From positions 4,644,204 through 4,708,203 of the forward strand of contig OY282386.1 of NCBI GenBank assembly GCA_958295945.1: a DNA stretch of 64,000 nt. Direction: 5' to 3'. Shown piece after piece: positions 1,939 to 52,251 of this stretch. The notes beneath the pieces were generated by a model. That model worked only from the letters and a program-made list of their open reading frames with translations. It did not search any database and was not told where the DNA came from. A program made the translations under genes and the position numbers. The stretch comes from Candidatus Poribacteria bacterium. Its GTDB lineage: Bacteria; Poribacteria; WGA-4E; WGA-3G. Position 1 is the stretch's first letter; each line of letters opens with the position of its first letter.

Positions 1939-2715
1939 TCAATTTTTTAGTTTGAGATCAATAGCGACGGCTTTCTTCTTTTCTATCAGCATTTTGTATT
2001 CCGCTTTATCCATGTCCTTTTCAACCTTTGCTACATTTTTCATCATGGATTTTATTTGCTTCTCATTTTCTTTCGTCATTTTCGCCAATCTCTTCTTTTC
2101 AGCAGCAATGTCAGTTGATTGTGAGCGTGATCTTTGATTTTTTCTTTCAGTGTCCCTGTTTCTTTCGTATTGAGAAGATGAACTTGAGCGGGACGGACTA
2201 TTACCGGTCTTGAGAAATCCCATAGAACTAGTATTGAAGGTGATCAATTCACCATTTTTATACAAAGTTATCTTTTTCTCCTCAATATGTTTAACTACAG
2301 CATCACCAATTTTATCCCCAACACTGACAATATAGAACTGATTTGAACGTCTTTCCACAACAAAGGCTTGAGAATTGGTTCCTAAATCGTCAATCGCAGT
2401 CCCATTCAAGGTATATTCTGGTTCTTTATTAGGAGGTTTCCATCCGAGAGGACGAAAAATATTATTGTCTATGATGACTTGAAAGAAACCTGAATTATCA
2501 GTAGACTTTGAACTTTCGGAAGTGCTTTTTGATACTTGCTTATGTTTCTGATACTCTCCTACCTCCTGTTTCAGTTGTGCTTTTGATGCGTTCATATTCG
2601 CCTCAACGGTTTCCATTTTGGCAAGATTTCCCCACTGAAGGTCTATGCCAAATACGAAAAGAAAGCCTACAATAGAAGCGATTCCCAACAGAATTAAGAC
2701 TTTTGAGTATTTCAC
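1939..2715 (-). CDS. Membrane-anchored GspC/PilP-like secretion or pilus accessory protein
   Basis: The GTG at 2715 has GGAAA 7 nt upstream, giving 258 residues that start VKYSKVLILLGIASIVGFLF, a clean N-terminal membrane anchor; an in-frame TTG at 2778 would add 21 residues before it. The middle part (IIDNNIFRPLGWKPP, YTLNGTAID, YIVSVGDKIGDAVVKHI, ITLYKNGE) resembles the periplasmic homology region of type II secretion protein C, which links the inner-membrane platform to the secretin. The C-terminal third is highly charged, Lys/Glu-rich and probably coiled coil (KRLAKMTKENEKQIKSM). No other secretion genes are adjacent, so the assignment rests on the domain pattern only. Confidence 0.55.
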   Translation of the reverse strand: MKYSKVLILLGIASIVGFLFVFGIDLQWGNLAKMETVEANMNASKAQLKQEVGEYQKHKQVSKSTSESSKSTDNSGFFQVIIDNNIFRPLGWKPPNKEPEYTLNGTAIDDLGTNSQAFVVERRSNQFYIVSVGDKIGDAVVKHIEEKKITLYKNGELITFNTSSMGFLKTGNSPSRSSSSSQYERNRDTERKNQRSRSQSTDIAAEKKRLAKMTKENEKQIKSMMKNVAKVEKDMDKAEYKMLIEKKKAVAIDLKLKN

Positions 2716-2985
2716 AACAATTTCCTTTTTTCTGTAAAACGCAGTGAAGAAAAATCCGAGTATTTTATAAACTCTCAACTTTAGGTTATTCTCATTACAT
2801 ATATATTGTACTTTGTTTCTAATTTAAAAGCAATGGAAAAATACAATCAATCTGAAACGTAGATGTGTGCGATGTTAATAAATGTATTTGCATGAGTAGG
2901 GACAGGGACTTGTGCTTCAACGGTATGATTGGTATGTAATCCGGCGACCACGCGATATAATCATTTATGAGATACGATCAAATTC

Positions 2986-4038
2986 CTAATGCGTATGACC
3001 TCTATGCCATGCCTGAACCGCTTTTGGAATTTCCTGTAGGTTTTCAATGGTGGTTTGAAGGGGGATAGCACACTCAGGGCCAATCAGGGGAACACCTGCA
3101 TCAAGATTTTTCACGACTTCTGCTCTAACGTCTTCCGGTTCCTTTGCAAAAAGTGTTTCAGGATTGTTTATATTGCCAACAAGTGCAATTCTTTTTTCAA
3201 CAATCTCCATAGATTCTTTCGGTTCGTTCTTTGAGTCGTAGTGGAAAGCTGCCATGCCCGTTTGTGCAATGAATTCCATCCGATCCACAGTGCGTCCACA
3301 GATATGTAAAATTAGCGGTATAGGAATCCTATCAACAAATTCAATGTGTAGGTCACGGAGATAACGTTGATAGTATTCACCACTCACAAGGTCACCTGTC
3401 GCGTGGTCAGGGAGTGTGAGAGCATCCGCACCTGCTTCTATCTGTGCAATTCCAAACTGGACAGTGGCTTCCTTCATACGATCCAGTGCCAGTTTAGTCT
3501 TACCCGGATCATCAAGCGACAATAACAGAAAAGGTTCTACACCGAAGCAGTGATAGCCAAGTGACCAGGGCCCCATCGTCTTACCGATGACAGCAACTTC
3601 GTCACCGTATTCTTTTTTCAATATCTTAATCGCTTCAAGTACACATTGGGTATCGGGATGGGTGAGGAAATCATTGGGAATAGAAATGTCGTCGACATCT
3701 TCCCATATCGGTTCACGCATCTTGACTGTTGGCCAGTTATCCTTCTGTTCCCACTGTATTTTACAGCCGAGAGCACTGGATTCTTGGATAATCGTGAAAA
3801 CCGGCATAATCGTGTCAAAACCGAGTTCTGTATAACCTGTAGCGGCAAGCCTTGCCATCAGTTCAGGTTCACGATTTGCCTCTGGAAATGGCGCATCCAC
3901 CAAATCCATCAATTCCACTGTTGCAACGGAAGTAGGATTGCAAACAGGAGTGCGGTCAGTCGGTTCATTGCGGAGAGCCGCAAGAACACGTTCACGACCT
4001 GTCATCGGTTTTTTGGTTTCACCATTTTGATTATCCAT
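2986..4038 (-). CDS. Uroporphyrinogen decarboxylase-family (MtaA/CmuA-like) corrinoid methyltransferase
   Basis: This 350-residue protein begins TGRERVLAALRNEPTDRTP, the usual start of the URO-D superfamily. It carries LHICG (His245, Cys247) and GPECAIP (Cys323), the His-x-Cys...Cys zinc site of MtaA/MtbA/CmuA methyltransferases, which move methyl groups between corrinoid proteins and thiols. True heme-pathway HemE lacks this zinc triad, so a C1-transfer role is favoured over heme synthesis. The ATG lies 9 nt after the stop of the gene at 4048-4686, implying co-transcription and possible translational coupling. No corrinoid protein is encoded next to it. Confidence 0.75.
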   Translation of the reverse strand: MDNQNGETKKPMTGRERVLAALRNEPTDRTPVCNPTSVATVELMDLVDAPFPEANREPELMARLAATGYTELGFDTIMPVFTIIQESSALGCKIQWEQKDNWPTVKMREPIWEDVDDISIPNDFLTHPDTQCVLEAIKILKKEYGDEVAVIGKTMGPWSLGYHCFGVEPFLLLSLDDPGKTKLALDRMKEATVQFGIAQIEAGADALTLPDHATGDLVSGEYYQRYLRDLHIEFVDRIPIPLILHICGRTVDRMEFIAQTGMAAFHYDSKNEPKESMEIVEKRIALVGNINNPETLFAKEPEDVRAEVVKNLDAGVPLIGPECAIPLQTTIENLQEIPKAVQAWHRGHTH

Positions 4039-4047
4039 TATATTAAC

Positions 4048-4686
4048 CTATATTTGTTGACTAGGGGCAGAAAGCACACCACGGGAAGCAGTTGTTTCCT
4101 CTTCACGCATAATGACACGGACATTTGGCGCACGAACTAATAGCAAACCGACAAGTGCATCATGCGAATGTCCACATGGAAAAAAGACAGTATCACCATC
4201 ACTTTCCAGTCCTGCATGCATTTCACCAAGTTTCATCAAACCACCAGCAATCGCTGAAACACGCCGTTCAGCACCGCGCCCCTCACCATCGGAAGTAACC
4301 CGGTAAGAGCCGCTTCCTAACGAATCAACAGTCATTGTTAATTTAGATTTTTTGTCAAGTGTATTCAATGGACGGGGTTCGACCGGTGTGTTCGGTGGAA
4401 TTTTGCAGGCTTCTAAAAAGACTCTACGACACGCAGCCTCATGATTGTCACCACAAGGAAAGAAAATCTTCCCATTTGACAACTCACTCATTCCACCTAA
4501 AGTGTGCATAGAATTGGCAACTTGCTGAATTCTCCCGGAGGCACCATCTTTACGACTGTAAGTGTGGATTCGAAAAATAGTACACGCGTCAAGCTCCTCT
4601 TGGTAAAGTGCAATCGTAATATCATGAAAATGAGTGTCAATCGGAACGAGTTCAATACGTCTACCGATATTTACTATTGATGGCAT
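4048..4686 (-). CDS. Unknown protein with two internal domain repeats, coupled to the MtaA-like gene
   Basis: I do not recognise this 212-residue protein. It has two similar halves. Each has an Arg/Ser/Gly-rich loop (SRKDGASGRIQQVANSM; GEGRGAERRVSAIAGG), a hydrophobic stretch with an MxxLG or LGEM element, and a KIFFPCGDNHEAA or TVFFPCGHSHDAL motif with invariant F-F-P-C-G-x-x-H. The repeated Cys and His could bind a metal or cofactor. No signal peptide or membrane segment is visible. It sits immediately upstream of the zinc methyltransferase gene, so a role in the same C1 or corrinoid process is a reasonable inference. Confidence 0.7.
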   Translation of the reverse strand: MPSIVNIGRRIELVPIDTHFHDITIALYQEELDACTIFRIHTYSRKDGASGRIQQVANSMHTLGGMSELSNGKIFFPCGDNHEAACRRVFLEACKIPPNTPVEPRPLNTLDKKSKLTMTVDSLGSGSYRVTSDGEGRGAERRVSAIAGGLMKLGEMHAGLESDGDTVFFPCGHSHDALVGLLLVRAPNVRVIMREEETTASRGVLSAPSQQI

Positions 4687-4719
4687 ATTTGTCCTAATGG
4701 TGGATCATTGGTGAAAAAA

Positions 4720-5616
4720 TTACCAGCGATATATGTTATTTATGTAATCATACACTCTTTCAGATACTCTTCGTAGAACGTTTGCACGTTGACCGACCCA
4801 GGCACCAAAAGAAATACGACGTCTGCGTGAGTTTGTTTTGGATTTATCTTCAATCAACCCCGTAAAGACATAAGGTCTGAGTGTACCACTTGCATCACGC
4901 AACACAATTATGCCACTATCTCCAATCAGTCCATATACAGTACCCGTTTTATTGCAGACTTTGGCAGAAGCAGGGATACGCGTCTTTTTATAAATATAAT
5001 CGCCATTAGGTAGTTCAAGGTAATACTTCATCTTGTCCGAGTATGGTAGTGTTTTTTTCCACATCTGCACATAAAACTTATTCAGATCACGTGCACTGGT
5101 CAAATTCCTATATGTCCGTCCATTTGTTGGGATATATTCAACGATCTTTGTTTGTAGAAAGTATGGGTAGTTTGCTTTCAATTTGCGATGCATCTGCCGA
5201 GGTCCTCCGACCAAACGAATAAAATAATTCGTTGAAGAGTTGGAACTGTAGCGGATCATCCTTTCCAAGTGGTATTTATTTCTTTTTGTATGTTGTAATC
5301 GTCCATGCTTAACTTCATGGAAATATACTAGCATCACAAAGTTCTTGATTAAAGATGCAGCCATCCGTGGAGTTTCCTCATTAATGGAAACTAATTTTAC
5401 ATCTCTTGAAAGATCATACACAACAAAACTTGTCCGATCAGAATAGGTTAACCCTCCTCTGGAACGGAATTGTTTCACAAGTTCATCAACTTTTGTTTCA
5501 AGTGGTGAATCAATTGAAAGATCGCGTGTTGCCTGAACAACTGTGATTTCGCTGAGTAAGACGGTGAGACCGCAACATACAAGTAATATGATGAGTTTGA
5601 ATATATAGGTTTTCAT
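4720..5616 (-). CDS. Exported class A beta-lactamase-like serine hydrolase
   Basis: This 298-residue protein has an N-terminal signal sequence (hydrophobic core about residues 7-22). The penicillin-binding fold motifs are in order: SLIK (Ser88, Lys91), YSSN at 123-126 in the place of the SDN loop, and KTG at 223-225. The spacing fits class A beta-lactamases. Asp of SDN is replaced by Ser and a clear E166-type omega-loop glutamate is not obvious, so it may be a carboxypeptidase or transpeptidase-like hydrolase and not a true drug-inactivating enzyme. It acts outside the cytoplasmic membrane. It lies 33 nt upstream of the 4048-4686 gene on the same strand. Confidence 0.75.
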   Translation of the reverse strand: MKTYIFKLIILLVCCGLTVLLSEITVVQATRDLSIDSPLETKVDELVKQFRSRGGLTYSDRTSFVVYDLSRDVKLVSINEETPRMAASLIKNFVMLVYFHEVKHGRLQHTKRNKYHLERMIRYSSNSSTNYFIRLVGGPRQMHRKLKANYPYFLQTKIVEYIPTNGRTYRNLTSARDLNKFYVQMWKKTLPYSDKMKYYLELPNGDYIYKKTRIPASAKVCNKTGTVYGLIGDSGIIVLRDASGTLRPYVFTGLIEDKSKTNSRRRRISFGAWVGQRANVLRRVSERVYDYINNIYRW

Positions 5617-5708
5617 CTGTTATATGTCATCCTCTTGTTGTATAATATGTCCCAATATAGGGTAATAAATAAATGCTCGTGAAAAATTGTGTATTGACTA
5701 TATAAACT

Positions 5709-7223
5709 CTAATTGGTAGAAAGTCGGTAACAGGCTGCCTCTCGATTATTGCGAACAAGTAGATAGTTACCTACGAGGGCAGGGTTGTTCCAAGTCTGTC
5801 CATTAATTGCTTGGAATCTCGCCAGTTCTTGGTGTTCATCTGGATTAGGTTTTATTAGAATGAGCTCACCTGATTCTGTCAGTACTAAAAAAATATCTGA
5901 TATTGCCATAGTCTGTCCATGTCCATAACGACCTCGTTTCCATTGTCGTTTGCCATCTGCTGCATTGATACAAGCAAAGATACCATCGTCAAGACCGTAT
6001 AAATAACCGTGATGGTATATTATAGTAGAGAATTTCACTTTGAATTGGATAGTTTCCCATAGTAGATTAACGTTGAAATCTCCTGATGGGTTACTTCTTG
6101 AAATCTGAAAAAGCTTAGAACCTATACCGTAAGCAGAAGAAATGAGAAGTTTGTCTCCAGGAAGAGGAGTCGGTTGTGCGGCACATTCTGCAGGAGGCCA
6201 TGACTGCTTCCATAGGAGTTCGCCTGTGGCAGGATTATGTGAAGTGACAAGACCGTTGTCAAACACAACAACTTGCTCAATTCCTGCCAAAGTTAAAAGT
6301 GTCGCAGAACTATACCCACTCTGGTTTCTGTGTCCTTTCCAAGCGATATCACCAGTGTCTTTGAAATAAGCCACTGCACCGCCAGCACTGACTATCACCA
6401 GTTCCTCATACACAAGAGGAGAACAACTGATACCCCATGGTGGTTTGTTTGCCTTATTTTCCTCAAAGACGTTAGTTGACCAGATGCGTTCTCCTGTTTC
6501 AACATTCAAGCAGTTTAAAATCCCCGTTGAACCAAGAGAATACACATACTTATTATCTATGGTTGGTGTAGCGCGTGGTCCAAGTCTACCAAGTGCAGTA
6601 TAATATCTTGCTTTATCACGATGTGTCCATTTTTCCTTTCCGGTAAAAATGTCATAACAAACAACCTTTTCCCATTCATCTTCCTGTTCCTGTGTAATTG
6701 CCGAATTACCGACTACAGCAAAACTTCCCCATCCATCACCAATCGGTTGTTTCCAAACCAATTCTGGAGGGTGATTGTTCCAGTCAGTATTTAGTTTTAG
6801 GGTAGTTATAACTGCGTTGCGGTTAGGTCCAAGGAACTGAGGAAAATCTGTATTGGGATTTTCAGGGATTTCTTGAGCAACAGATATACCAACATTATGG
6901 ACAGGCTTTGTTCCCCATTTCCATTCAAATCTCGGTACAAGGTCTCCACTGAATCCAACAAAACGGAATTGGTAAACAAATGTCAGGATAAATATAATGA
7001 ATACACCAAGAGATATAAGCTTAACTTTCCAGACTAACCGTGAAAATCCAACCAACCAAAATAAACTAAGAACAACTGCAAAGAAAAGAATAATTACGGT
7101 GAGTGCAACTTTGTCCTGTCGATGACCAGCATCCATTAACCCAACATAACCTATCCCAATAACAGCAAGACTAATGATGAAAAGTAATGGCCACAACCGA
7201 GTGCGTTTTCTCTCTTGGTTCAT
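5709..7223 (-). CDS. Membrane-anchored PQQ-type beta-propeller protein
   Basis: This 504-residue protein has about three N-terminal membrane segments (roughly residues 10-30, 38-60 and 68-88). They are followed by a propeller of PQQ-like blades recognisable as GKEKWTH, GERIWST, GDIAWKG, GELLWKQ and GKRQWKR, each preceded by V-x-D/N-x-x-T-G-type strands. Proteins of this type (BamB/PQQ-dehydrogenase-like repeats) sit on the outer face of the inner membrane. The Asp/Glu residues of PQQ dehydrogenases are not evident, so a scaffold or sensor function is likelier than an enzyme. A GGAT just before the ATG is a weak ribosome site. Confidence 0.8.
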   Translation of the reverse strand: MNQERKRTRLWPLLFIISLAVIGIGYVGLMDAGHRQDKVALTVIILFFAVVLSLFWLVGFSRLVWKVKLISLGVFIIFILTFVYQFRFVGFSGDLVPRFEWKWGTKPVHNVGISVAQEIPENPNTDFPQFLGPNRNAVITTLKLNTDWNNHPPELVWKQPIGDGWGSFAVVGNSAITQEQEDEWEKVVCYDIFTGKEKWTHRDKARYYTALGRLGPRATPTIDNKYVYSLGSTGILNCLNVETGERIWSTNVFEENKANKPPWGISCSPLVYEELVIVSAGGAVAYFKDTGDIAWKGHRNQSGYSSATLLTLAGIEQVVVFDNGLVTSHNPATGELLWKQSWPPAECAAQPTPLPGDKLLISSAYGIGSKLFQISRSNPSGDFNVNLLWETIQFKVKFSTIIYHHGYLYGLDDGIFACINAADGKRQWKRGRYGHGQTMAISDIFLVLTESGELILIKPNPDEHQELARFQAINGQTWNNPALVGNYLLVRNNREAACYRLSTN

Positions 7224-7388
7224 AAATCCGTTTTTTAATGTATTCCTTATCTACAGATTAGTGTTACTATATAATAATTTTTATTTCAAAATTTGTCAAG
7301 AGAAATTTGTAAAATACTCCCTTCAAAATTAGTATTTTTTCATTTGAATAAGGATGGATAGGATGATTTTTTAAAGGAAATAATATAT

Positions 7389-7598
7389 ATGGCTACTCTT
7401 GACGAGTATGGCACTTGTTATGTCTGTGAATCTGAAATGGAGTCGAGTTGGACTATCCAACTCGGCTATAAGGTTGAATCGGAAAGTGGTTGGGGATGTG
7501 TTAAATGCGATTTACCGATGCAAGCCGCGGCCGCTATTGTTTGGGGTGGCAGTGTTGACAAACATGGGGAAAACGTAGAAGATCAGATAAATATGTGA
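7389..7598 (+). CDS. Small CxxC...CxxC zinc-ribbon-like protein
   Basis: This 69-residue protein begins at an ATG with AAGGAAA 8 nt upstream. It has Cys10-x-x-Cys13 and Cys37-x-x-Cys40, a spacing that suits one zinc ribbon, with an aromatic-rich segment between the pairs (SSWTIQLGYKV). It is monocistronic and divergent from the propeller gene. I cannot name a function; partner binding or nucleic-acid binding are both possible for such ribbons. Confidence 0.65.
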   Translation: MATLDEYGTCYVCESEMESSWTIQLGYKVESESGWGCVKCDLPMQAAAAIVWGGSVDKHGENVEDQINM

Positions 7599-7920
7599 TG
7601 GATGGGAAAAGGGCAGGCTTCCAGTTCCACCGGTGGAAAAACGGGTTACTCACGAGCATGATTTATATTTACATCCAGAGATGAATTCTTGATGTTGACT
7701 GCTATTGTCTTGTCGTTTGTTGTTTTTGTTTCGGTTTGTGGGTTGTGTGAGTTGACGGTGAAGGTTGTGCGTAAAATCAAAAGCAATTAGTGGTTTTTGG
7801 ATTGATAATTGTGCTAAAAGTGCTTTTCGCTAAAATATATTGAGACAGACTCTGGCTAATCGTTGTATTTTATTATCGTAATAGAGTCTAATAACTCAGA
7901 CAATGCTTGGGGTTTTATTT
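7599..7920. other. Intergenic stretch with a palindrome and a possible 32-residue membrane peptide ORF
   Basis: A perfect 14-bp palindrome TTCCACCGGTGGAA lies at 7625-7638, shortly after the zinc-ribbon gene. An ORF at 7692-7790 (+) would encode 32 residues, MLTAIVLSFVVFVSVCGLCE followed by TVKVVRKIKSN. This looks like a single-span membrane peptide with a positively charged C-terminal end, but it has no good ribosome site. Nothing else convincing is seen. Confidence 0.35.
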
Positions 7921-8595
7921 TTAGTTGGATGTTGTTGCCAGGATGATCCAAATCATCTTTGTCCCGTTTTGAATGTCCATTACTACCTTTCCTTTGAATT
8001 GTGAAACATGAATGTAAAGAAATGACCCTCTGGGCGTGATTTTGACATTTATTGATTTTCTTAAAAAATCCAGTAGTTCCTCCATTTTATAGATCCAAAT
8101 AATCTGGGAGTTCGATTTAATTAATACAAAAAGTTCAGGAGAATCCTCTCCGAGTAAACTGTATTTTAGGATATCGAAGGCTTTGTTATGGTTTAGTTCA
8201 TGGACAATAAAAGCAGAGGCCTCACGACTAATCCAGTTTGTTTTTGAGTTTCTTGCTTTCCTTATCATTGATATTTCTAAAACGTGTCTGAATTCATCTG
8301 ATAAACCGAAACGATCTACAAAATGTTTGATTTTCATGCGGGTCGCTTGATTGAACCCCCTTCCCTTGAACGACTTTATATTTGCTCCAAAGTTGTGCCC
8401 ACCTATTGTGCGAATAAACACATCAGATTTTTCTCCATGCTGTCCTTCACGTTCCACTAATTTTATTTTTGGGTTTTTCGGAACACTTTCTGAAAATGCT
8501 TCAATGATTTTTCTGATATTTTTTGGGTCTTTAACTATCTCACGACAAAACAATTCCTCATTATTTTTTCCTATATCTGCATTTTGGTTTGTCAT
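7921..8595 (-). CDS. Probable type II restriction endonuclease
   Basis: This 224-residue protein is encoded 21 nt downstream of a DNA adenine methyltransferase, the classic restriction-modification arrangement. It contains EREGQHGEKSDVFI followed by FGANIKSFKG: Asp58 and Asn72-x-Lys74 fit the D...(E/N/S)-x-K core of PD-(D/E)xK nucleases, with Asn in the usual acidic position. No signal peptide or membrane segment is present. Its recognition site would be that of the partner methyltransferase and cannot be read from sequence. The endonuclease call rests on context and this motif, not on overall family recognition. Confidence 0.65.
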   Translation of the reverse strand: MTNQNADIGKNNEELFCREIVKDPKNIRKIIEAFSESVPKNPKIKLVEREGQHGEKSDVFIRTIGGHNFGANIKSFKGRGFNQATRMKIKHFVDRFGLSDEFRHVLEISMIRKARNSKTNWISREASAFIVHELNHNKAFDILKYSLLGEDSPELFVLIKSNSQIIWIYKMEELLDFLRKSINVKITPRGSFLYIHVSQFKGKVVMDIQNGTKMIWIILATTSN

Positions 8596-25192: not shown

Positions 25193-28100
25193 CTACATTC
25201 CTCCACGAGGACTCCATTGAATCATATAATTCGAAGGAACTTCGCGAATGAACATAGACGGAGGAAGTTCACGATCACCATATCGGTAGATTGTAGATGA
25301 CAGAAAAAGTTGCTTTTGTGCCCGCGTCATGCCAACATAAAAAAGCCGACGCTCCTCTTCAAGTTCTGCATCAGTGATGTCCCGTTTCCACATCGGAAAA
25401 CTTCCTTCCTCCATTCCGATGATTATGACAACAGGAAATTCCGTGCCCTTTGCAGCATGCAGTGTCATTAATGTAATCTGTTCTGCGTCATCATCTATCT
25501 CATCATAATTCGTCAATAATTTCTGAAAACTCAGGAAATCTGATAGGCTGTCCCCTTGACCTGCCTTCAGACATTGCAGCAGGAGAGTCCGAAACTTTGA
25601 TTTGGTTTCTACCCAGGCAGTGTCTTCCTGCATAACAGGGACATCAGTCTGTTCTAACTCTTTAAAGTAAGTTTCAACCTGTTGTTTTTCTGTTGTTTCA
25701 AAAGGGAGATCTTCATGTATTTGCTGAGAACCTTCCTTGACCACGCGTATAGCAGCGTTTAGAAATGCCTTCTCTTCTGTGATATCCTTGGCGTTTTGAA
25801 CTGAAATATCTGTTTTGTCAAGAATACCAAGACCAACAAACGGCAAGAAATCTGTGAGTGATTGCACTTCACGTTTCTTTAAGTCAATCCTTATCAATTC
25901 CTTGAATATTTGTCTGTTTACTTCAACATCCTCCATCGCACGATGTAACCTATTATGTTCAATTCCAAATTTCTCAGCAAGTGATTCAATGCCACGTCGT
26001 TGACGAGGCAATAGTCTTCGCGCAGTGGTAAGTGTATCATAATGTGGATTCAATAAGTTTCGTTTTAGATAGGTCTGTAAGTCACGTTCCAAAATTGGGT
26101 TGTCATAGCGAGCGACATTGTGACCTATTAGAATACGGTCTTGAATGAATCTACAAAATTCTGGTAGAACCATCTCAATACTCGGTGCGTCCTTTACATC
26201 CTCACTACTTATGCCGTGAACCTTTGTAACTGCCGGTGGAATGTATCCACCGGGTGGTTTCACTAAGCAATGAAACTCCTCAACTACATTGCCAATTACA
26301 TTAAGCCTTTTCGCTGCAATCTCAACAATATTTGCGCGTTTGATATTGACACCTGTAGTTTCCAGATCATAAATTACCATATCAGACATATTCGGTGTTT
26401 CAAATCTACTCAATAGATGTTGGCAGAGTTTTAATGCGGCAATGCAACGTGTCTTACCTGAACCGAGTTGAATCACATCCGACTGTTCAGAGGTGGTGGT
26501 ACCGATAAGAATTGATCTTGTTTCTATGTCCTTTTCACCAAGTTCCTCAAAATCTCCAATTAGTATATTGACTGCATTTCTGTTGCGTAACCGTTCACTG
26601 TCACCATCTGAGGTCTCAATTTTTGGTAAATATTGGATTTCCACATTCTGATCAAGATAAGATTTTAGTGTTTGACTAATTATATATGCTGAACAATATT
26701 CATCTATACCATAACCTGCAGTGATCTGAATTTGTTCACCCCGAACAAGTGCACTATATAGAACATCTTGTGCCAAACCCAAATTTGATAAATCCGACGT
26801 ATTCTCAATAACAGTTAACTCCTTGTTGCGGTACGGACTTCTTATCATATCTAATTTATCAAATAGAATATTGACAATTTTATCTATTTTTTCATCTCCA
26901 ATTTCATCTTCCAAAGTTGCCAGCTGTTCCCAAAATTGACTGATGTTTTTTCGTGTTAATGGACCGACATCATCTGGATATTGCTCAATGTTGCGTAAGA
27001 GTTCTTTCAACTCTATTCCTTCGCGTTGCGCTAACCACTTGAGTCGCACCCATGTCAGGTCATCAATCCTCTTTTCAGGAAAGTTAATTGCGATTTCTAA
27101 GTCGCGCGGAAGTTGCCACTGAATATAACAGAGATATGAAAGAATTCCCTTCAGTCTTTCGTCATCAAAGGAATTAGTTGGTCGTATCCGTTGAAATTTG
27201 ATTTTAGATCGTATCAACTCTTCTGTCAGAACATCGGCAAGTCTGTGTGTTCTATAAAATACGGCAATGTCGCGATATGAAACATTCCGTTCACTAATCA
27301 GTTTTCCGATAATCCTGATAATAGTGCGTGCTTCCTCAACAGGAGTCATAAACGTATAGTGAAATATGGAACGTCCTTCATCTTTGTGTGTTGTAAGACT
27401 AGACTGCCCCAGTCGTAACGGATTATTCGTAATTACTTCTTCTGCAGCACGTAGGATCGTTTCACTACATCTATAATGATCGTCTAATTCAACTGTATAT
27501 GGAGAGTAATTGGATTTGAAATGCTCTATGAACAGCGGATTTGACCCACGCCAACTATAGATTGACTGGTCAGCATCCGCAACAACCATCAGGTTATTCT
27601 CTGGTGGAGCAGTAAGTAGGCGAAGAAGTTGGTATTGAACTTCGTTCACATCGTGGTACTCATCAACAAGGATGTGTGAGAAATTGTGATGATATTCCAG
27701 CTGCACTTCTGAAATTTCTTCAAACAACTCAACTGTTTTCACAAGTAGATCATCAAAATCAAGTGCATTGTATTCATTGAGTTTGCTATGATAGGCATTG
27801 AAGGCATTTACTAAATTCGCTTCAGCATCAGGATCGTCTATTTCTGCGACATAATCGTGATCAATTCTGATGTTATTTTGTGAATAATCAAGTTTACATT
27901 TTGCTTCACTGATAGCATTCCGTAGTAACCACACAGGATAGTCAATCGGGGGGAGATTCAACTCCTTAATGACTTCAGCGAGTATTTCATCCTGTATTTC
28001 TTGGTCAAAAATGGCAAAGTTTTCACTCAAACCGATGTGATGTGCGTGATTTCTGAGCACCTTCACACAAAAAGCATGAAATGTGGCAACATTAATATTT

Positions 28101-28342
28101 GAACCGTGCGGTTCTCCGATTTCATTATTGACACGATCACGCATCTCTTGTGCGGCTTTATTAGTAAAAGTAATCGCAAGAATTTTGTCAGGCTTGATTC
28201 CGTTATGACGAATTAGGTAAGCAATACGGTGCGTAATGACTTTTGTTTTGCCTGTACCAGGACCAGCAATTACAAGTATAGGTCCAGTGTTGTGTTTTAC
28301 TGCTTCTGTCTGTTTTTCATTTAAACCGTGAAGAATGTTCAT
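25193..28342 (-). CDS. UvrD/PcrA-type helicase with an internal DnaQ-like exonuclease domain
   Basis: This 1049-residue protein has superfamily 1 helicase motifs: AGPGTGKT (26-33), TFTNKAAQEM, VDEYHDV, VADADQSIYSWRGS, and near the C-terminus TLHAAKGTEF (about 957) and ERRLFYVGMTRAQ (about 1000). Inserted at about 650-820 is a complete DEDDh exonuclease: YDLETTG (Asp, Glu), IGHNVARYD and HRAMEDVE (His, Asp). Thus DNA unwinding and 3'-5' degradation are joined in one chain. A region before the exonuclease (about 540-640) is unassigned. UvrD helicases act in repair and replication-fork processing. Motif II has His in place of Gln (DEYHD). Confidence 0.88.
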   Translation of the reverse strand: MNILHGLNEKQTEAVKHNTGPILVIAGPGTGKTKVITHRIAYLIRHNGIKPDKILAITFTNKAAQEMRDRVNNEIGEPHGSNINVATFHAFCVKVLRNHAHHIGLSENFAIFDQEIQDEILAEVIKELNLPPIDYPVWLLRNAISEAKCKLDYSQNNIRIDHDYVAEIDDPDAEANLVNAFNAYHSKLNEYNALDFDDLLVKTVELFEEISEVQLEYHHNFSHILVDEYHDVNEVQYQLLRLLTAPPENNLMVVADADQSIYSWRGSNPLFIEHFKSNYSPYTVELDDHYRCSETILRAAEEVITNNPLRLGQSSLTTHKDEGRSIFHYTFMTPVEEARTIIRIIGKLISERNVSYRDIAVFYRTHRLADVLTEELIRSKIKFQRIRPTNSFDDERLKGILSYLCYIQWQLPRDLEIAINFPEKRIDDLTWVRLKWLAQREGIELKELLRNIEQYPDDVGPLTRKNISQFWEQLATLEDEIGDEKIDKIVNILFDKLDMIRSPYRNKELTVIENTSDLSNLGLAQDVLYSALVRGEQIQITAGYGIDEYCSAYIISQTLKSYLDQNVEIQYLPKIETSDGDSERLRNRNAVNILIGDFEELGEKDIETRSILIGTTTSEQSDVIQLGSGKTRCIAALKLCQHLLSRFETPNMSDMVIYDLETTGVNIKRANIVEIAAKRLNVIGNVVEEFHCLVKPPGGYIPPAVTKVHGISSEDVKDAPSIEMVLPEFCRFIQDRILIGHNVARYDNPILERDLQTYLKRNLLNPHYDTLTTARRLLPRQRRGIESLAEKFGIEHNRLHRAMEDVEVNRQIFKELIRIDLKKREVQSLTDFLPFVGLGILDKTDISVQNAKDITEEKAFLNAAIRVVKEGSQQIHEDLPFETTEKQQVETYFKELEQTDVPVMQEDTAWVETKSKFRTLLLQCLKAGQGDSLSDFLSFQKLLTNYDEIDDDAEQITLMTLHAAKGTEFPVVIIIGMEEGSFPMWKRDITDAELEEERRLFYVGMTRAQKQLFLSSTIYRYGDRELPPSMFIREVPSNYMIQWSPRGGM

Positions 28343-28455: not shown

Positions 28456-29505
28456 CTAATCTGTGGGTCTAAAGAGTTCGTCTAACACAACCGTCGCATA
28501 CGCTCCTGCCGGTAAAGTAAAACAGAGTCGTAACCCATCATCAATATGTTGAATCTGATGGACTTCCATTTTTATACGGAATGGACGACGAGTACCGGGT
28601 AACCTTACCCCGACTACCTTGCGAAATGTTTCAGGTTTCACACCTTCTTCAGATAGGAGTTCCATTTCCATCTTTTTCACACTACCAGTAGGCTGCCGCA
28701 TCTTGTAGCCGAAGATGGGTCCTGTCGGACTTATTTCAAATGAATCTGCACGATTCTGTTCAACTGAAACGTTCTCAACATTGAACGGAGCACCGTTGCT
28801 GTGCTTTACTGCTACATCTCCATCCAAAAGTTCTCCGATATAAGGAAAGCGTCTCTCTAAAATGCAATTAAACAGATGTGCTTGATAAGCAGACAAATAC
28901 AACTTTCTGAGTCGATGTGGAATATATCTAATCGCTTTTACTTCATCTAATCGCTGTGTGAGTCTACACATTTGTGCTGTCATATCTGTTGACAAATACG
29001 CTATTACTTCTTCCCAATTGCTTTGCACTAACGCTCTGCCAATCAGATGTGTGTCTTGCTTGTTCCCAAATCTTTGTGAGCCAAACCAATTAGGGACGCC
29101 CTCCTTTGCCATCTGTTCTAATCTCTCAGAAATAATTGAGTATTCCTCTCTAACAACACCACGCAATGTAATATCAAATCTATTTCCTTGAAGATGACCT
29201 ACCCGCAATTTATGAGGATGTCTTTTTACCCACAATACCTCTATAGATGGAAGTTCTATCGCTAATATCTGTTCAGGTGTTATTCCTTCAACAGATAAAA
29301 CTTGGGTAGTGATTGCTCGTTTATCCTTTAACCCAGCATAACCTATATCTCTTTGATTGACTTGTAGATTAGCTGCAATCTTCTTAATCGCTTCAAGAGT
29401 ACTGATATTCCGTTTGCGAATTGAAAAACAGGTATGTGTACCAAAACCGGTTGGTTCATATAATGGTATTTCTTGAACAATGAAATCTTCAGGTTCAAAT
29501 AGCAT
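28456..29505 (-). CDS. truD: tRNA pseudouridine(13) synthase TruD
   Basis: This protein of about 349 residues contains the TruD signature GYAGLKDKRAITTQ with the catalytic Asp at about 61, plus PNWFGSQRFG and the C-terminal PTGPIFGYKM and AYATVVLDELFRP segments. TruD isomerises U13 of some tRNAs. The start is chosen 5 nt after GGAGG (29511-29515); ATG codons at 29508 and 29517 are also in frame and would add one or four residues. Its promoter side faces the mobile element that starts at 29580. Confidence 0.93.
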   Translation of the reverse strand: MLFEPEDFIVQEIPLYEPTGFGTHTCFSIRKRNISTLEAIKKIAANLQVNQRDIGYAGLKDKRAITTQVLSVEGITPEQILAIELPSIEVLWVKRHPHKLRVGHLQGNRFDITLRGVVREEYSIISERLEQMAKEGVPNWFGSQRFGNKQDTHLIGRALVQSNWEEVIAYLSTDMTAQMCRLTQRLDEVKAIRYIPHRLRKLYLSAYQAHLFNCILERRFPYIGELLDGDVAVKHSNGAPFNVENVSVEQNRADSFEISPTGPIFGYKMRQPTGSVKKMEMELLSEEGVKPETFRKVVGVRLPGTRRPFRIKMEVHQIQHIDDGLRLCFTLPAGAYATVVLDELFRPTD

Positions 29506-30458
29506 CATATCCTCCATTTGTATCATAATGGTTATCGTATCTGATTGTCAAGAATTAATAATGTGGTAACGGTGATTCAGGGTGTGTAAAGTTCTTGGCA
29601 CTAACTTCTCACCATGAATTGTAGGGGCGGGTCTCTGTGCCCGCCCGTCGCCTTACAGGACAAGGAATGACGGGGCACAGAGACCCGGGGAATCATGGCG
29701 AATACCAAACGCGTATTCGTCTAAGCGCATTCATACCCGACAAATGCCACTTATTCTTAATTTTCGAGATGCAGAAGCAAGACAATAGAATCCCAATAGA
29801 TTCACCATGTAATCCATTGTCCTCAACACCCAAAAAAACCCATACCCAACACTCAAATAAGTTATAATTATCAATAGTTTGATTCTTAATTCAATAGGTT
29901 GGGTTAAGTAACGAATTCCAACATGATGAAATCTATTGAGCAAGATTTTTGGGTTTCGGACATCAACCAACCGAAGGATACATTTGGGGTAAATTATAGA
30001 ACTCAAACTACGATTGAATGCAAACAAATTGCACACAACACTAAAAAAGGAAGGAACATCAGAATGACACAAGGACAAATCAAGGAACACATCAGCAAAG
30101 TCCACGCACGACACTACAATTGGGAAACCAAAGGAACAGCATTTGACTATGCCCATGACCTTTGGGATACCGCACTCCAATGTATTGAACACAAAGACAC
30201 TGCCGACAAAACAGAACTCGCAAAACAAACCCATGACATACTCCATAGTACAGGAAGTCTTGCAAAATGCCTCACAGACAACTTCAGAAAACTCGTTATC
30301 ATCCATCACGTACGAGGACTCACAACATCACGAACCATTGACTTCATCCTACCCGATGAAACACTAAAAGATGTGACACCCTTCCACGTATTCAAATTCT
30401 CAAACGTCTGTGGTTACGACAACATAAAAAACTTCCTACTCATGCGAGTGAGTTACCT

Positions 30459-31590
30459 GAGGGGTGTGCATAATTGAATTTAGTCAGGATATAGGTTAAA
30501 CTCTTATTAAAAGAATAATCTAAAAGGAGTATTAACCATGAGTTATCCTGACCAAAGATATTATATCACATTTTTCTCTAAACGCTACAAAGATTTTGAA
30601 AAGTCTATCAACGCCAATCAATCCAAACCGAAAGGAAGACCTAAAGTGCATCCTGATAGTTCACTGATTATCTTTTTTGCGATTATGCTGATGAGAGGCA
30701 TAAATCGGTTTAAAGCACAGCACGCTTTTCTTTGTGAACATCCAGCCTGGGTAAAAAAACTCAAGTTCAAAAGCATTCCGGATCGGACAACTTTATCCCG
30801 TCGCTATAAACAACTTGCCCCCAGGATTGAGCAGTTCGTTGACTATCTCGGTGACTTAGGTGTCGCATTAGACACCGATACGCCTCGAGATGTTGTCTTT
30901 GTTGACAAAAGCCTCTATAAAGCAGAAGGCAGTGTGTGGCATCAAAAAGACCGAAAAGAAAATCACATTCCCGAAGGTTTGCGCAACCTTGATACCGATG
31001 CAAGTTGGTCAACAAGCAAGTATCGTGGATGGGTTTATGGGTATGGACTGCATCTGACAACAACAGCGAAAGGTTTTCCGATGTTCGCAAATGTTTGGAC
31101 CGCTTCTGTAAGCGAAAAAACAGGACTTGATCAAAGGACTGACGCACTGCTATCGAGAAATATCCAATATGTCGTTGCGGATGCTGGCTATACCGACTTT
31201 ACTCGCACTCAGACACTTGCAAAAGATGGACTTTTCCTTTTGACACCAATAACAGGTGCTAAAGCTACTGAAAAGGTAGCTTATCTAAAAGCGATTGAAA
31301 CATCACCGCAGCTTGAAACTTATCAAAAACAACGCAAAACTGCGATTGAACCGGTTTTCAATCTGTTGACCGATCTGACAGGAACAAAGAACAATCAGAA
31401 ACAACTGCCAATATCTCGTCTTGAAAATGTGAGAACCTTTCTGATGTTGGCAATCGTCTTGCTACAAATAGCAATGTTGGTCAACTCAATATGGAACAGA
31501 CCTCACAGAGAGGTATCAAGAATGAAAACATTATTTCAATAAACGGAGTGAAAAGGACTATTTTGTTATCAATATTTATGCACACCCCTC
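30459..31590 (+). mobile_element. Insertion sequence, 1132 bp, DDE type
   Basis: Both ends read GAGGGGTGTGCATAA inward, a perfect 15-bp terminal inverted repeat. AGTTACCT is duplicated directly at 30451-30458 and 31591-31598. One transposase gene fills it. The host reading frame is restored exactly on removal, so the insertion is recent. The terminal GGGTGTG is shared with the ends of the surrounding 2.7-kb element. Confidence 0.92.
30538..31542 (+). CDS. IS transposase (DDE_Tnp_1, IS4/IS5-like)
   Basis: This 334-residue protein has the DDE layout: first Asp in VVFVDKSLYK, second in YVVADAGYTDF, and Glu in RKTAIEPVFNLLTDLTG. An N-terminal part (PDSSLIIFFAIMLMRGI, IPDRTTLSRRYKQL) resembles the DUF772-like DNA-binding region of such enzymes. 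AAAAGGAG lies upstream of the ATG. It appears intact, so the IS may be active and could recognise similar ends in trans. Exact family placement was not possible by eye. Confidence 0.88.
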   Translation: MSYPDQRYYITFFSKRYKDFEKSINANQSKPKGRPKVHPDSSLIIFFAIMLMRGINRFKAQHAFLCEHPAWVKKLKFKSIPDRTTLSRRYKQLAPRIEQFVDYLGDLGVALDTDTPRDVVFVDKSLYKAEGSVWHQKDRKENHIPEGLRNLDTDASWSTSKYRGWVYGYGLHLTTTAKGFPMFANVWTASVSEKTGLDQRTDALLSRNIQYVVADAGYTDFTRTQTLAKDGLFLLTPITGAKATEKVAYLKAIETSPQLETYQKQRKTAIEPVFNLLTDLTGTKNNQKQLPISRLENVRTFLMLAIVLLQIAMLVNSIWNRPHREVSRMKTLFQ

Positions 31591-34327: not shown

Positions 34328-35645
34328 ATGAAAACAACACCTCTATACATTCTAATATCCATCATACTAATTGCCATATTTCCCCCGTTAGTCTCTTCAC
34401 AAGAATATAATACTTGGGAGTTACCAGAAGGTGCAATTGCGCGACTTGGTAAAGGTGAAATCACGGGAAATGTTGCCTTCTCTCCAGACGGCAATCGGTT
34501 GGCAGTTGCAGGTTCAATCGGAATTTGGATTTACGATGTGCGCCCCGATAAAGAAACAGAACTGGAACTTATCACTGGACATACGTTGGATGTTACGACA
34601 CTTGCTTATTCACCCGATGGTAGCATACTCGCGAGTGGTAGTAGAGATGGATCAATACGACTGTGGGATACTATTACCGGTAAACAGATTATTTTGTACA
34701 AAGGAGAATGGGAAGAAGTAATCACACTTGTAATTTCAACAGATGGGAAAATGCTTGCAAGTGGACATCATCATTGGTTCAATAATGCACACCAAGTAAG
34801 ACTATGGAACTTACAAACAAAAGAACTCATAACAACAATAGATGACCATACAAGCAACATCTCGTCTTTAGCATTTTCACCTGATGGTAAAACACTTGCT
34901 ACAGGTAGTAGGGACAAGACTGTAAGAATATGGGACACACAAACAGGTGAACACAAATCTACACTTGTAGATCATAAAATGCCTATATCTACGGTAGTGT
35001 ATTCCCCTGATGGGAAGACACTTACGACTGTAAGTCCACGTGATACTGTTTTGCAGTGGGATACAGAAACAGGAACTTATGACACATCACTATTTAAACG
35101 AATTGGACAGATCCATTCACTTACATTTTCTCCAGATGGTAGCACGATAGCAATAGACCAAATCAATTATGTGAAGTTGATTAATTCTGAAACAGGAAAA
35201 CTGGAAACTGTCTTCAGATGCAAGTGCAAGTAGTGATGGATCTGTCAGGTTGTGGGATGTACAATCTTTTGAACTCATCGCATTACCTGGAGGAAATAAT
35301 AAAGGGTCCTATGCCGTAGCGTATTCTCCTGATGGAAACCTAATAGCAAGTGCCGGTGATGACAAAATTATCCAATTGTGGGATGTACAAAGTCAAGGTA
35401 CAAAGAAAATAATTAAGACACCGCAAAACCAAGTTACATGTGTTGCTTTCTCTCCGAATGGCGTATTTTTCGCATCCAGCAGTCGTGATGGTAGCATTGA
35501 ATTATGGAGCACTCAATCAGGTGAACATATTTCATCATTCAAAGTCAATGATGTGTGGATATCAGCAATTGCTTTCTCTCCTAATGGTGATACATTAGCA
35601 AGTAGCAGTTTTGATGGCACTATCCTCTTGTGGAAGCTGCGTTGA
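34328..35645 (+). pseudogene. Exported WD40 protein gene broken by a frameshift
   Basis: The first frame (34328-35233) encodes a signal peptide (LYILISIILIAIFPPLVSS), the module NTWELPEGAIARLGKGEITG and six WD40 blades, then ends abruptly after SETGKLETVFRCKCK. The WD40 sequence continues in another frame: ASASSDGSVRLWDVQSF begins about 35222 and runs through four more blades to 35645. About 20 residues of a blade also seem missing at the junction, so a deletion rather than a one-base error is likely. A separate downstream start at 35250 could make a partial protein. An intact version would have about ten blades. Confidence 0.75.
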
Positions 35646-50166: not shown

Positions 50167-52251
50167 CTATTTATCCTGTGTTTCTGATTTTGGCTGTATG
50201 GTGGAAAGCAACCCGTCATTTTCAAGAATTGCTTGTCGCGTCATTGTCCATAGAGTAGACTGCGGAGCAGTTGCCTGCCATGCCCCATTAAGATTCATAA
50301 CCACATGATCCTTTTCATCATCTGTAAGATTTCCATCAGGAAAAAGTTCAATGGTTTCCCAGTTCTTAAATGTAACAGGTTCACCACCATCCCACTTCCA
50401 TTCTCCCTCTTTTTCCAAATCATTGAGTCCAATCCAGAAGAATCCGCTGCCGTAGATTTCTTGAATCCATTTGTTTTCAGTTTCATCGTTAATTGAGACG
50501 AGATGTGCCCCATTTTGTGTTGCTTTGTGGTGAGCATCATGCCAGTCATCACATACAATCAACTTGTAGGAATGTCCATTTATTGGGTTAACAACCCACA
50601 CATCTGGTATCTGTTCTTCGTCAGCAGCAGCTTTGTCCTCAGAAGTTGTATCAGGAAAGAGCAGTTTTCCATTCAACTTCAGGACAAGGTCATCCTGTTG
50701 TAATTTGTCTTTGATTGTGATAGGTCCTGCTTCTGCATTGAGGAGGATGTATTTTACATGAAAGTAATAATCACCCGATTTTTCAACATAAATGGAAAAA
50801 TTTCCGTAATTATCAGTCTTAATATTTGCACTTGATGTGTAACCATCTGCATCCCCTATCCGACGTATTTTACTTTTACCTTGCGGTGCCTTTATTCTTA
50901 ACTTAGTATTTCGGTTTTTTAATGGTGTTCCATCTGCATAGACAATTTTTCCACTTATACTTATTCTCTGTTTTACGGTAATTTCTACATTGTCAATTTC
51001 AGTTCCAGGTTTTATTCCAAAAATAATATGGCTTAAAATAGATTGTTGGTCTAATGTTTTCTTAAAAATCAGATTCCCGATTTTGACCGAGAGAATCTCA
51101 AATTTTGTCCGTAAGTGATCTAAAATACGTATATCGGAGGGTATCTTTGATAACGTCATATCATCAGGTAAAACGAATAATTTAAGCAGTCCATACTCAA
51201 TCCCATTGAATGAAAATGTCCCTGTAGAAGTTAACTGAGATGTGAGTCTATTTCGAGGAGGCAGTCTGAAGTCAGTGTCAACTAACGGTGTTGAATCTGT
51301 AATGTTTTTACGAGTTTTATCATCAGTAGTATCACTGGTTGTCCCGATACGATACCTTTCAGATATGAAGTAACCATCAAGGAGTTGCATTGGCTGTAGA
51401 CCTATCTGTATATCCGAAACTGTGTTTCCAAATGTATCTACAATGCTGCCAGTGAATGTTGATTTCTCCTCTGGTGTCAACGTTGTTCTAAGAATTGACT
51501 TTTCTCTGTCCATCTGGAAAGTCCGCAATCTCTGCGTTATATTTATATCTTCTTTATCAAAATTACTGTCAGTATTGCCACCAAGCATCAAAACGAGATT
51601 ATCCTCTTCTGGTTTTCCTGTAATGAATATTTCATCTGTTGTTGCAATTTTTTTCTGATATTCCACCGAAAAGGTAAAGTAACCTGGACCGTCAACATAT
51701 TTTTCAAAATAACCATCTGCATCAAGTTGAACCAACATTCCGCGTGTTATCGTTGAAGTGCCATTTATTGTCTGTCCACTGAGGTTTAAAAGCACATCAA
51801 CATTACTTAGTGGTGTGTCATCGGGATTGAGCACCCGTCCTCTTATCAAAGTTCGTTTACGCACATATATTTGAACATCTTGAATATCTACTCCATCCAC
51901 AATTGAAAATACAAAACCATCAGAATAGTTTGAGTGTTTATCTGGATAGTAGATAATTCCTTCTATAATTATCTTGCTTATAACATAAGGTGTATTTTTT
52001 TTCGGATGTAAGTTCATTTTGACTGGGAAATTAGTTCCTGATACAGAGAAAACCCCATCATCATCGGTAATTGATAATTCTGTTTTTTCATTATTGAATT
52101 CACTTAGGGCAACTGTTATATCTGGCACAGGATTGCCATTGTAATCAATGACGCGACCTGAAAGTGTCTCTGCCATTGTTAGTGGTGAAAATAATATTAA
52201 CCCCAGAAGTATGAAGAAAACTGATATGGAATGAAAGATTTTAAGTCTCAT
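50167..52251 (-). CDS. Exported carboxypeptidase-regulatory-like repeat protein with a C-type lectin domain
   Basis: This 694-residue protein has a signal peptide (ISVFFILLGLILFSPLTMA). Several beta-sandwich repeats of the carboxypeptidase D regulatory type follow (LSGRVIDYNGNPVPDITVAL, RGRVLNPDDTPLSNVDVLL, FTGSIVDTFGNTVSDIQIGL, ISGKIVYADGTPLKN). The C-terminal 130 residues form a C-type lectin domain (GHSYKLIVCDDWHDAHHKATQNGAHLVSI split by EIYGSGFFWIGLNDLEKEGEW), with WDGGEPVTFKNW in the sugar-binding region. The repeats resemble those of the sigma-fusion protein at 59643-62087. It is likely a surface glycan-binding protein. Confidence 0.82.
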   Translation of the reverse strand: MRLKIFHSISVFFILLGLILFSPLTMAETLSGRVIDYNGNPVPDITVALSEFNNEKTELSITDDDGVFSVSGTNFPVKMNLHPKKNTPYVISKIIIEGIIYYPDKHSNYSDGFVFSIVDGVDIQDVQIYVRKRTLIRGRVLNPDDTPLSNVDVLLNLSGQTINGTSTITRGMLVQLDADGYFEKYVDGPGYFTFSVEYQKKIATTDEIFITGKPEEDNLVLMLGGNTDSNFDKEDINITQRLRTFQMDREKSILRTTLTPEEKSTFTGSIVDTFGNTVSDIQIGLQPMQLLDGYFISERYRIGTTSDTTDDKTRKNITDSTPLVDTDFRLPPRNRLTSQLTSTGTFSFNGIEYGLLKLFVLPDDMTLSKIPSDIRILDHLRTKFEILSVKIGNLIFKKTLDQQSILSHIIFGIKPGTEIDNVEITVKQRISISGKIVYADGTPLKNRNTKLRIKAPQGKSKIRRIGDADGYTSSANIKTDNYGNFSIYVEKSGDYYFHVKYILLNAEAGPITIKDKLQQDDLVLKLNGKLLFPDTTSEDKAAADEEQIPDVWVVNPINGHSYKLIVCDDWHDAHHKATQNGAHLVSINDETENKWIQEIYGSGFFWIGLNDLEKEGEWKWDGGEPVTFKNWETIELFPDGNLTDDEKDHVVMNLNGAWQATAPQSTLWTMTRQAILENDGLLSTIQPKSETQDK

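Follow-up and report, generated by a model that had tools for sequence, protein, structure and literature searches.

A DEDDh exonuclease and a putative RecJ/Cdc45-type relic within the 2B domain of a UvrD-family helicase of Poribacteria

Layout of the composite gene and its helicase motor

The window analyzed here, a stretch of 64,000 nucleotides from a Candidatus Poribacteria bacterium (assembly GCA_958295945.1, contig OY282386.1, positions 4,644,204 to 4,708,203), carries on its reverse strand a gene that combines a UvrD-type helicase with a DEDDh exonuclease in a single protein of 1049 amino acids (aa). The gene and its parts, in the order of the protein, are as follows.

25193..28342 (-): composite UvrD-type helicase / DEDDh exonuclease, 1049 aa
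26831..28342 (-): helicase part 1, aa 1-504, comprising 1A, 1B, the start of 2A and the first part of 2B; PF00580 at 7-279; Walker K32, motif II D227/E228, motif IV R291
27062..27070 (-): RID, aa 425-427, where PcrA/UvrD have the duplex-contacting GIG in 2B; x-hydrophobic-D stands there instead
26390..26830 (-): predicted truncated and eroded RecJ/Cdc45-type DHH domain, aa 505-651, from hhalign, a profile search of the bacterium's own genome and the structural model
26693..26719 (-): predicted relic of DHH motif I, aa 542-550, AGYGIDEYC, in which D547 corresponds to D83 of RecJ
25883..26389 (-): DEDDh exonuclease domain, aa 652-820, with D659, E661, D747, H800 and D805; PF00929, 2gui
25628..25882 (-): helical connector, aa 821-905, helices in the AlphaFold2 model; the least conserved part of the protein
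25196..25627 (-): helicase part 2, aa 906-1049, the remaining portions of 2B and 2A, carrying motifs V and VI (R1007); PF13361

Pfam recognizes UvrD-helicase at residues 7-279 (E 5.7e-81), RNase_T at 656-813 (E 1.2e-31) and UvrD_C at 285-1016. Since UvrD_C spans its interval with RNase_T within, the C-terminal half of the helicase is interrupted by the exonuclease. The insert is about 400 aa long (505-905) and lies in the latter half of 2B, with motif IV before it and motifs V/VI behind it; in a BLASTP comparison with the PcrA of the same genome, the insertion point follows the segment pairing with PcrA 'GYLENFR' and precedes 'EAQNRVEN'. The AlphaFold2 model, computed from an alignment of 51 sequences (the window protein and 50 taken from the 70 full-length proteins of the loci), is good nearly throughout, with a mean predicted local distance difference test score (pLDDT) of 86.5 and a predicted template modeling score (pTM) of 0.81. 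A first-pass annotation of the sequence had placed a complete DEDDh exonuclease inside the helicase fold, between motif IV and motifs V and VI. Pfam, the AlphaFold2 model and the five catalytic residues agree on this position, and the model together with structural alignment locates the exonuclease within 2B, not after a complete helicase. Of 84 species genomes of Poribacteria, 75 carry the insert (52 of the 55 of high quality), which is therefore neither a chance event nor an assembly join.

Around this insert, the 1049-aa protein is predicted from its sequence and model to be a complete UvrD/PcrA-type helicase motor. With residues 505-905 omitted, it yields a single BLASTP alignment to PcrA of its own genome (649 columns, 35.9% identity, E 2.3e-111), and this near end-to-end match argues that the helicase is complete. 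Residues 1..1045 of the model pair with 627 of the 645 residues of Deinococcus radiodurans UvrD (4c2t, chain D; Z 40.6, 3.9 Å), and a comparison with 3pjr (Z 40.2, 4.4 Å, 630 aligned) also finds the 1A-1B-2A-2B fold. By sequence, the closest solved structure for the motor is PcrA 1pjr (E 5.7e-101); PcrA is likewise the nearest named family, with a score far under its cut-off (506 vs 911 bits). Residue conservation was counted in 51 Poribacteria sequences, namely the window protein, 48 proteins from genome searches and two fetched additionally; the partial proteins of loci L054 and L055 were dropped, and the full-length matches of genomes G029, G042, G044 and G045 were not included. K32, D227, E228, Q259 (motif III) and R291 are kept in all 51, and R1007 of motif VI in 50, the remaining row being truncated.

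The motor departs from PcrA at the GIG motif of 2B. Adding 13 Chloroflexota proteins to the 51 sequences, GIG is absent from the entire family (0/51 and 0/13), whereas the paralogous PcrAs of Poribacteria keep it in five cases out of five; an Asp replaces the last Gly in 63 of the 64 family sequences. For lack of this motif, the protein is filed as a derived member of the UvrD family and not as a PcrA/UvrD ortholog. Passages of PMC13238157 present 2B as a regulatory domain central to a long dispute over how UvrD-family helicases are switched on: the GIG motif of PcrA/UvrD touches the duplex, 2B-duplex contacts autoinhibit the monomer, and UvrD is relieved of this inhibition by 2B-mediated dimerization or by MutL bound to 2B.

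The two domains carried by the insert

The DEDDh domain is the better defined of the two. Residues 652..818 of the model superimpose on Escherichia coli DnaQ (2gui) with Z 23.9 and 1.5 Å over 165 aligned residues, the exonuclease of Staphylococcus aureus DinG (9ii8, Z 23.9) is also among the closest folds, and the closest solved structure by sequence is the PolC exonuclease of Thermotoga maritima (2p1j, E 3.2e-24). The inserted exonuclease is intact in its catalytic residues and, as far as sequence tells, would be active. An exonuclease that is merely vestigial, in a protein acting solely as a helicase, finds its argument in three sequences in which the catalytic residues are lost and the helicase is intact, the five positions reading ARPEA in L047, DADAI in L048 and DADSI in L049. 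However, D659, E661, D747, H800 and D805 are all kept in 48 of the 51 Poribacteria sequences and in the 13 Chloroflexota sequences, a set biased by having been found through exonuclease motifs. Over 49 sequences, the exonuclease is moreover the best conserved part of the protein (mean identity 66%), ahead of the helicase parts (61%), the preceding domain (49%) and the connector (37%), and a vestigial role is very unlikely. The three losses all occur in other families and none in close relatives of the window protein, in which the five residues persist.

The first insert domain (aa 505-651) is left nameless by Pfam, NCBIfam and PADLOC scans, and Pfam finds no family in 23 such sequences beyond stray single matches. 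The first-pass annotation had set apart residues 540-640 as unassigned; the region begins near residue 505 and reads as an eroded DHH-type domain, with a likeness to the start of RecJ that is visible on inspection. We interpret aa 505-651, on sequence profiles and a compatible fold, as a truncated and probably catalytically eroded RecJ/Cdc45-type DHH domain. In hhalign comparisons, the region reaches the RecJs of 16 Poribacteria genomes at 93.5% (E 2.3e-7) and a set of 27 RecJs at 94.2%, while controls (SIS, NrnA, exonuclease, helicase) remain at 0.1-0.9%. Each half of the family reaches the 27 RecJs alone, at 88.3% for Poribacteria and 70.9% for Chloroflexota. A profile search of the bacterium's own genome returns, at E<=10, only the composite protein and RecJ (E 0.007), and individual HMMER matches to RecJ are weak (E 0.007-0.43). 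Among 177,635 PDB sequences, the profile matches 12 at E<=10, of which seven are RecJ or Cdc45 and none SIS. Two other matches were discarded as chance, with no support from either the fold or the own-genome search: mTERF (E 0.022) and the human deubiquitinase USP36, which provides the two best PDB-profile matches (E 0.014).

Folded alone, aa 505-651 gives a confident model (pLDDT 85.9). RecJ of Thermus tops the structural list, with 2zxo (134 aligned, 3.3 Å) and 1ir6 (138 aligned, 3.1 Å) both at Z 12.8; the match covers RecJ residues ~46-205, and further RecJ and Cdc45 entries rank next. The SIS-fold phosphoheptose isomerase 3bjz ties with them (Z 12.8, 140 aligned, 4.1 Å), and ranking by Foldseek E-value puts the SIS-fold entries 7kqa and 3bjz first, so that the fold alone does not decide the identity of the domain. 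This tie, along with the missing Pfam family, is what speaks for an unrelated Rossmann-like fold, SIS-like or newly formed, instead of a DHH relic. Sequence profiles nevertheless pick RecJ (41-94% across all hhalign pairings) and not SIS (0.1-0.8%), in agreement with the PDB and own-genome searches, and such an unrelated origin is quite unlikely.

If the domain derives from RecJ, it is a relic and not a RecJ nuclease, since the metal ligands of motifs I-IV and the DHHA1 domain are missing. The ligands of D. radiodurans RecJ are given in PMC4846377, in the passages concerned with them, as D79, D81, D83, D135, H159 and D223. At the corresponding positions of the 51 sequences, Asp is found in 2 for D79, 2 for D81, 50 for D83 (D547) and 33 for the likely counterpart of D135, and a His is present in none at the probable equivalent of H159; the domain stops ahead of motif IV. 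Motifs II and III were placed from the strand order of the model, and an HMMER alignment to 8y30 places this stretch differently; the DHH triad is absent from the family sequences under either placement. A single Asp from what was once the metal site of RecJ, D547 (26702-26704), is retained in 50 of 51 Poribacteria and all 13 Chloroflexota sequences, although most other ligands are gone.

Distribution, neighborhood and proposed role

A contig scan of 84,980 species genomes found 97 relatives, of which 80 were kept and 78 loci read: 62 in Poribacteria and 16 in Chloroflexota. A full-length protein is encoded at 69 of these loci. As its patterns were built from exonuclease motifs, the scan is biased toward intact exonucleases and could have missed other phyla. 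Within one order of Chloroflexota, 18 of 20 genomes match, two of these by partial stretches only. Across an even draw of 301 genomes from that phylum (completeness limit 85), the whole insert occurs in three, and in a further 99 the match is limited to the exonuclease part or its surroundings. In a tree of 41 composite proteins and five PcrAs, a single clade holds the Chloroflexota proteins (support 100), but support for the deep branches is 48-56, so that the direction of a transfer between the two phyla cannot be told. One genome (G035, locus L042) carries two composite genes in tandem, at 1998-5177 and 5396-8575 on the reverse strand, whose products share 43% and 49% identity with the window protein; G038, from the same family, also has a second copy. 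The diverged pair of L042 could act as a heterodimer.

This distribution bears on a role in defense, in which the helicase would unwind foreign DNA and the exonuclease destroy it. PADLOC models of GajB match the protein (best E 1.3e-102), as does a Cas-associated DEDDh model (E 5e-34), and the pairing of nuclease with helicase is frequent in defense systems. The GajB matches, however, cover the shared UvrD motor, and no GajA or other defense gene appears among the neighbors tested. Nearly all genomes of the phylum have the gene, a distribution unlike that of islands. No place with at least 80% coverage of the insert was found in plasmids (323 records) or phages (158 records), and none of the viral contigs searched holds the full insert, their 24 relatives matching the exonuclease part only. 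An antiphage or anti-mobile-element nuclease is thus highly unlikely: where a repair or anti-mobile-element nuclease had first been suggested, repair stands as the most economical reading, and phylum-wide spread, neighbors and replicon searches leave the other half without support.

The genes upstream of the composite gene are the following.

28456..29526 (-): TruD tRNA pseudouridine synthase, on the same strand as the composite gene
29923-30477 (+): open reading frame (ORF) of 184 aa beside the transposase gene, no Pfam match
30538-31542 (+): DDE transposase gene, between truD and mutL; PF01609
32393..34288 (+): mutL, divergent, beyond TruD and the transposase gene

Amidohydrolase and PhyH genes lie downstream. 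The proximity of mutL suggested a mismatch-repair operon; among the 54 loci with >4 kb upstream, mutL is nearby in seven and TruD in nine, and synteny of this extent fails to carry such a reading. Elsewhere in the window, two neighboring WD40-like ORFs that differ in frame (34328-35233 and 35250-35645, forward strand) resemble a single gene split by a frameshift, and a 694-aa ORF (50167-52251, reverse strand) has C-type lectin and carboxypeptidase-regulatory-like domains. The same genome holds separate genes for PcrA, RecJ and NrnA, an AddA-like gene of 1151 aa and another PDDEXK gene, which indicates that the composite enzyme is an addition and not a substitute.

The layout suggests a self-contained DNA-repair machine in which a physical coupling of unwinding to digestion is plausible. 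With a probability of about 0.5, we favor a chromosomal, lineage-core repair helicase-exonuclease of the UvrD family whose regulatory 2B domain has been rebuilt as a nuclease-bearing module. By analogy with its relatives, the motor would track 3'-to-5' on single-stranded DNA. Loss of the GIG contact would remove the usual autoinhibition by 2B, and a single chain may then unwind. The eroded DHH domain would no longer cut and may guide or sense single-stranded DNA, and the DEDDh domain would shorten the tracked or the displaced strand from its 3' end in the course of excision or end processing. Mismatch excision, or repair of stalled forks and 3' ends, would be the likely setting, alongside PcrA, RecJ and the AddA-like enzyme. 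More tentatively, and with some doubt, the insert may behave as a built-in Cdc45-like part: the duplex grip being dropped, the dead RecJ domain would hold single-stranded DNA and hand its 3' end to the DEDDh exonuclease.

Several observations weigh against this repair role. In nine of the 84 genomes no insert was seen, and two of these (G008 and G016, 90-96% completeness) belong to the same genus as the window, so the composite may be dispensable. The three sequences that keep their helicase with an exonuclease dead by sequence indicate that some lineages do not require coupling, and synteny with mutL is confined to the genus level.

A regulatory or RNA-directed function, in which the DEDDh domain would act on RNA (nascent RNA, R-loops) and the motor clear RNA polymerase, is a rival reading. 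Like roles have been proposed for exonuclease-bearing DinG and for accessory functions of UvrD/Rep, and the DinG exonuclease 9ii8, as said, is among the closest folds. According to passages of PMC12525004, a DinG whose N-terminus bears a DEDD domain digests single-stranded DNA 3'-to-5' as well as the RNA strand of hybrids. However, the closest sequence relatives of the domain include PolC/DnaQ proofreading-type exonucleases, which act on DNA, and the Pfam scan of the protein found no RNA-binding domain; an action on RNA is rather unlikely.

Comparison with known helicases and nucleases

The helicase-exonuclease that we favor as a repair enzyme shares with PcrA/UvrD/Rep (superfamily 1A) the same complete motor, all tested motifs and a fold conserved over 627/645 residues. 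It differs from them by the ~400-aa insert in 2B and the lack of GIG, and a canonical PcrA is encoded separately in the same genome. Residues 505-651 resemble the first half of the DHH domain of RecJ/Cdc45 (RecJ ~46-205) in profile, have a compatible fold and keep the equivalent of D83; unlike RecJ, the relic is truncated (neither the motif IV/V part nor DHHA1), lies inside a helicase and lacks D81, H159 and the DHH triad. In this loss of metal ligands it is like Cdc45, which is described in PMC4846377 as being without D79, D135 and H159. Part of PMC3307487 also reports inactivated RecJ homologs, as DHH domains, in archaeal and eukaryotic replication complexes. The exonuclease has the fold and the five catalytic residues of the DnaQ/PolC type, but it is unlinked to a polymerase and sits within a helicase.

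Helicase and nuclease are joined in one chain in other enzymes, with the nuclease at an end. RecB/AddA bears a C-terminal PD-(D/E)XK nuclease, and WRN an N-terminal nuclease. The composite protein, unlike RecB/AddA, has no PDDEXK domain among its Pfam matches up to E 10. ExoDinG carries, according to passages of PMC11981726 and PMC12525004, an N-terminal exonuclease on a superfamily 2 XPD-like helicase, whereas the composite has a superfamily 1 UvrD motor and an internal exonuclease. None of these three is known to have a nuclease inside 2B, and searches of open-licence papers brought up none describing a UvrD helicase whose 2B contains DHH and DEDDh domains. In contrast to GajB of Gabija, the composite has no adjacent GajA, its direct neighbors being TruD and an amidohydrolase. 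We file it as a derived layout among UvrD-family helicase-nucleases.

In E. coli, mismatch excision involves the UvrD helicase, RecJ and DEDDh exonucleases, and the composite would bring together in one chain these three types of activity drawn from separate proteins. UvrD and one of four exonucleases are named together in the abstract of PMC6876574.

If confirmed, the family would add a third, internal design of helicase-nuclease to the fusions at the C-terminus (RecB/AddA) and at the N-terminus (DinG, WRN). It would also provide bacteria with their own, independent example of a pseudo-RecJ at work with a helicase, in parallel with the inactive RecJ homologs at the replicative helicase of archaea and eukaryotes. 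Does a monomer of this enzyme unwind DNA, and does the nuclease follow the rotation of 2B? As a natural GIG-less family with two nuclease-type domains in 2B, it offers a direct test of the autoinhibition model put forward for PcrA and UvrD.

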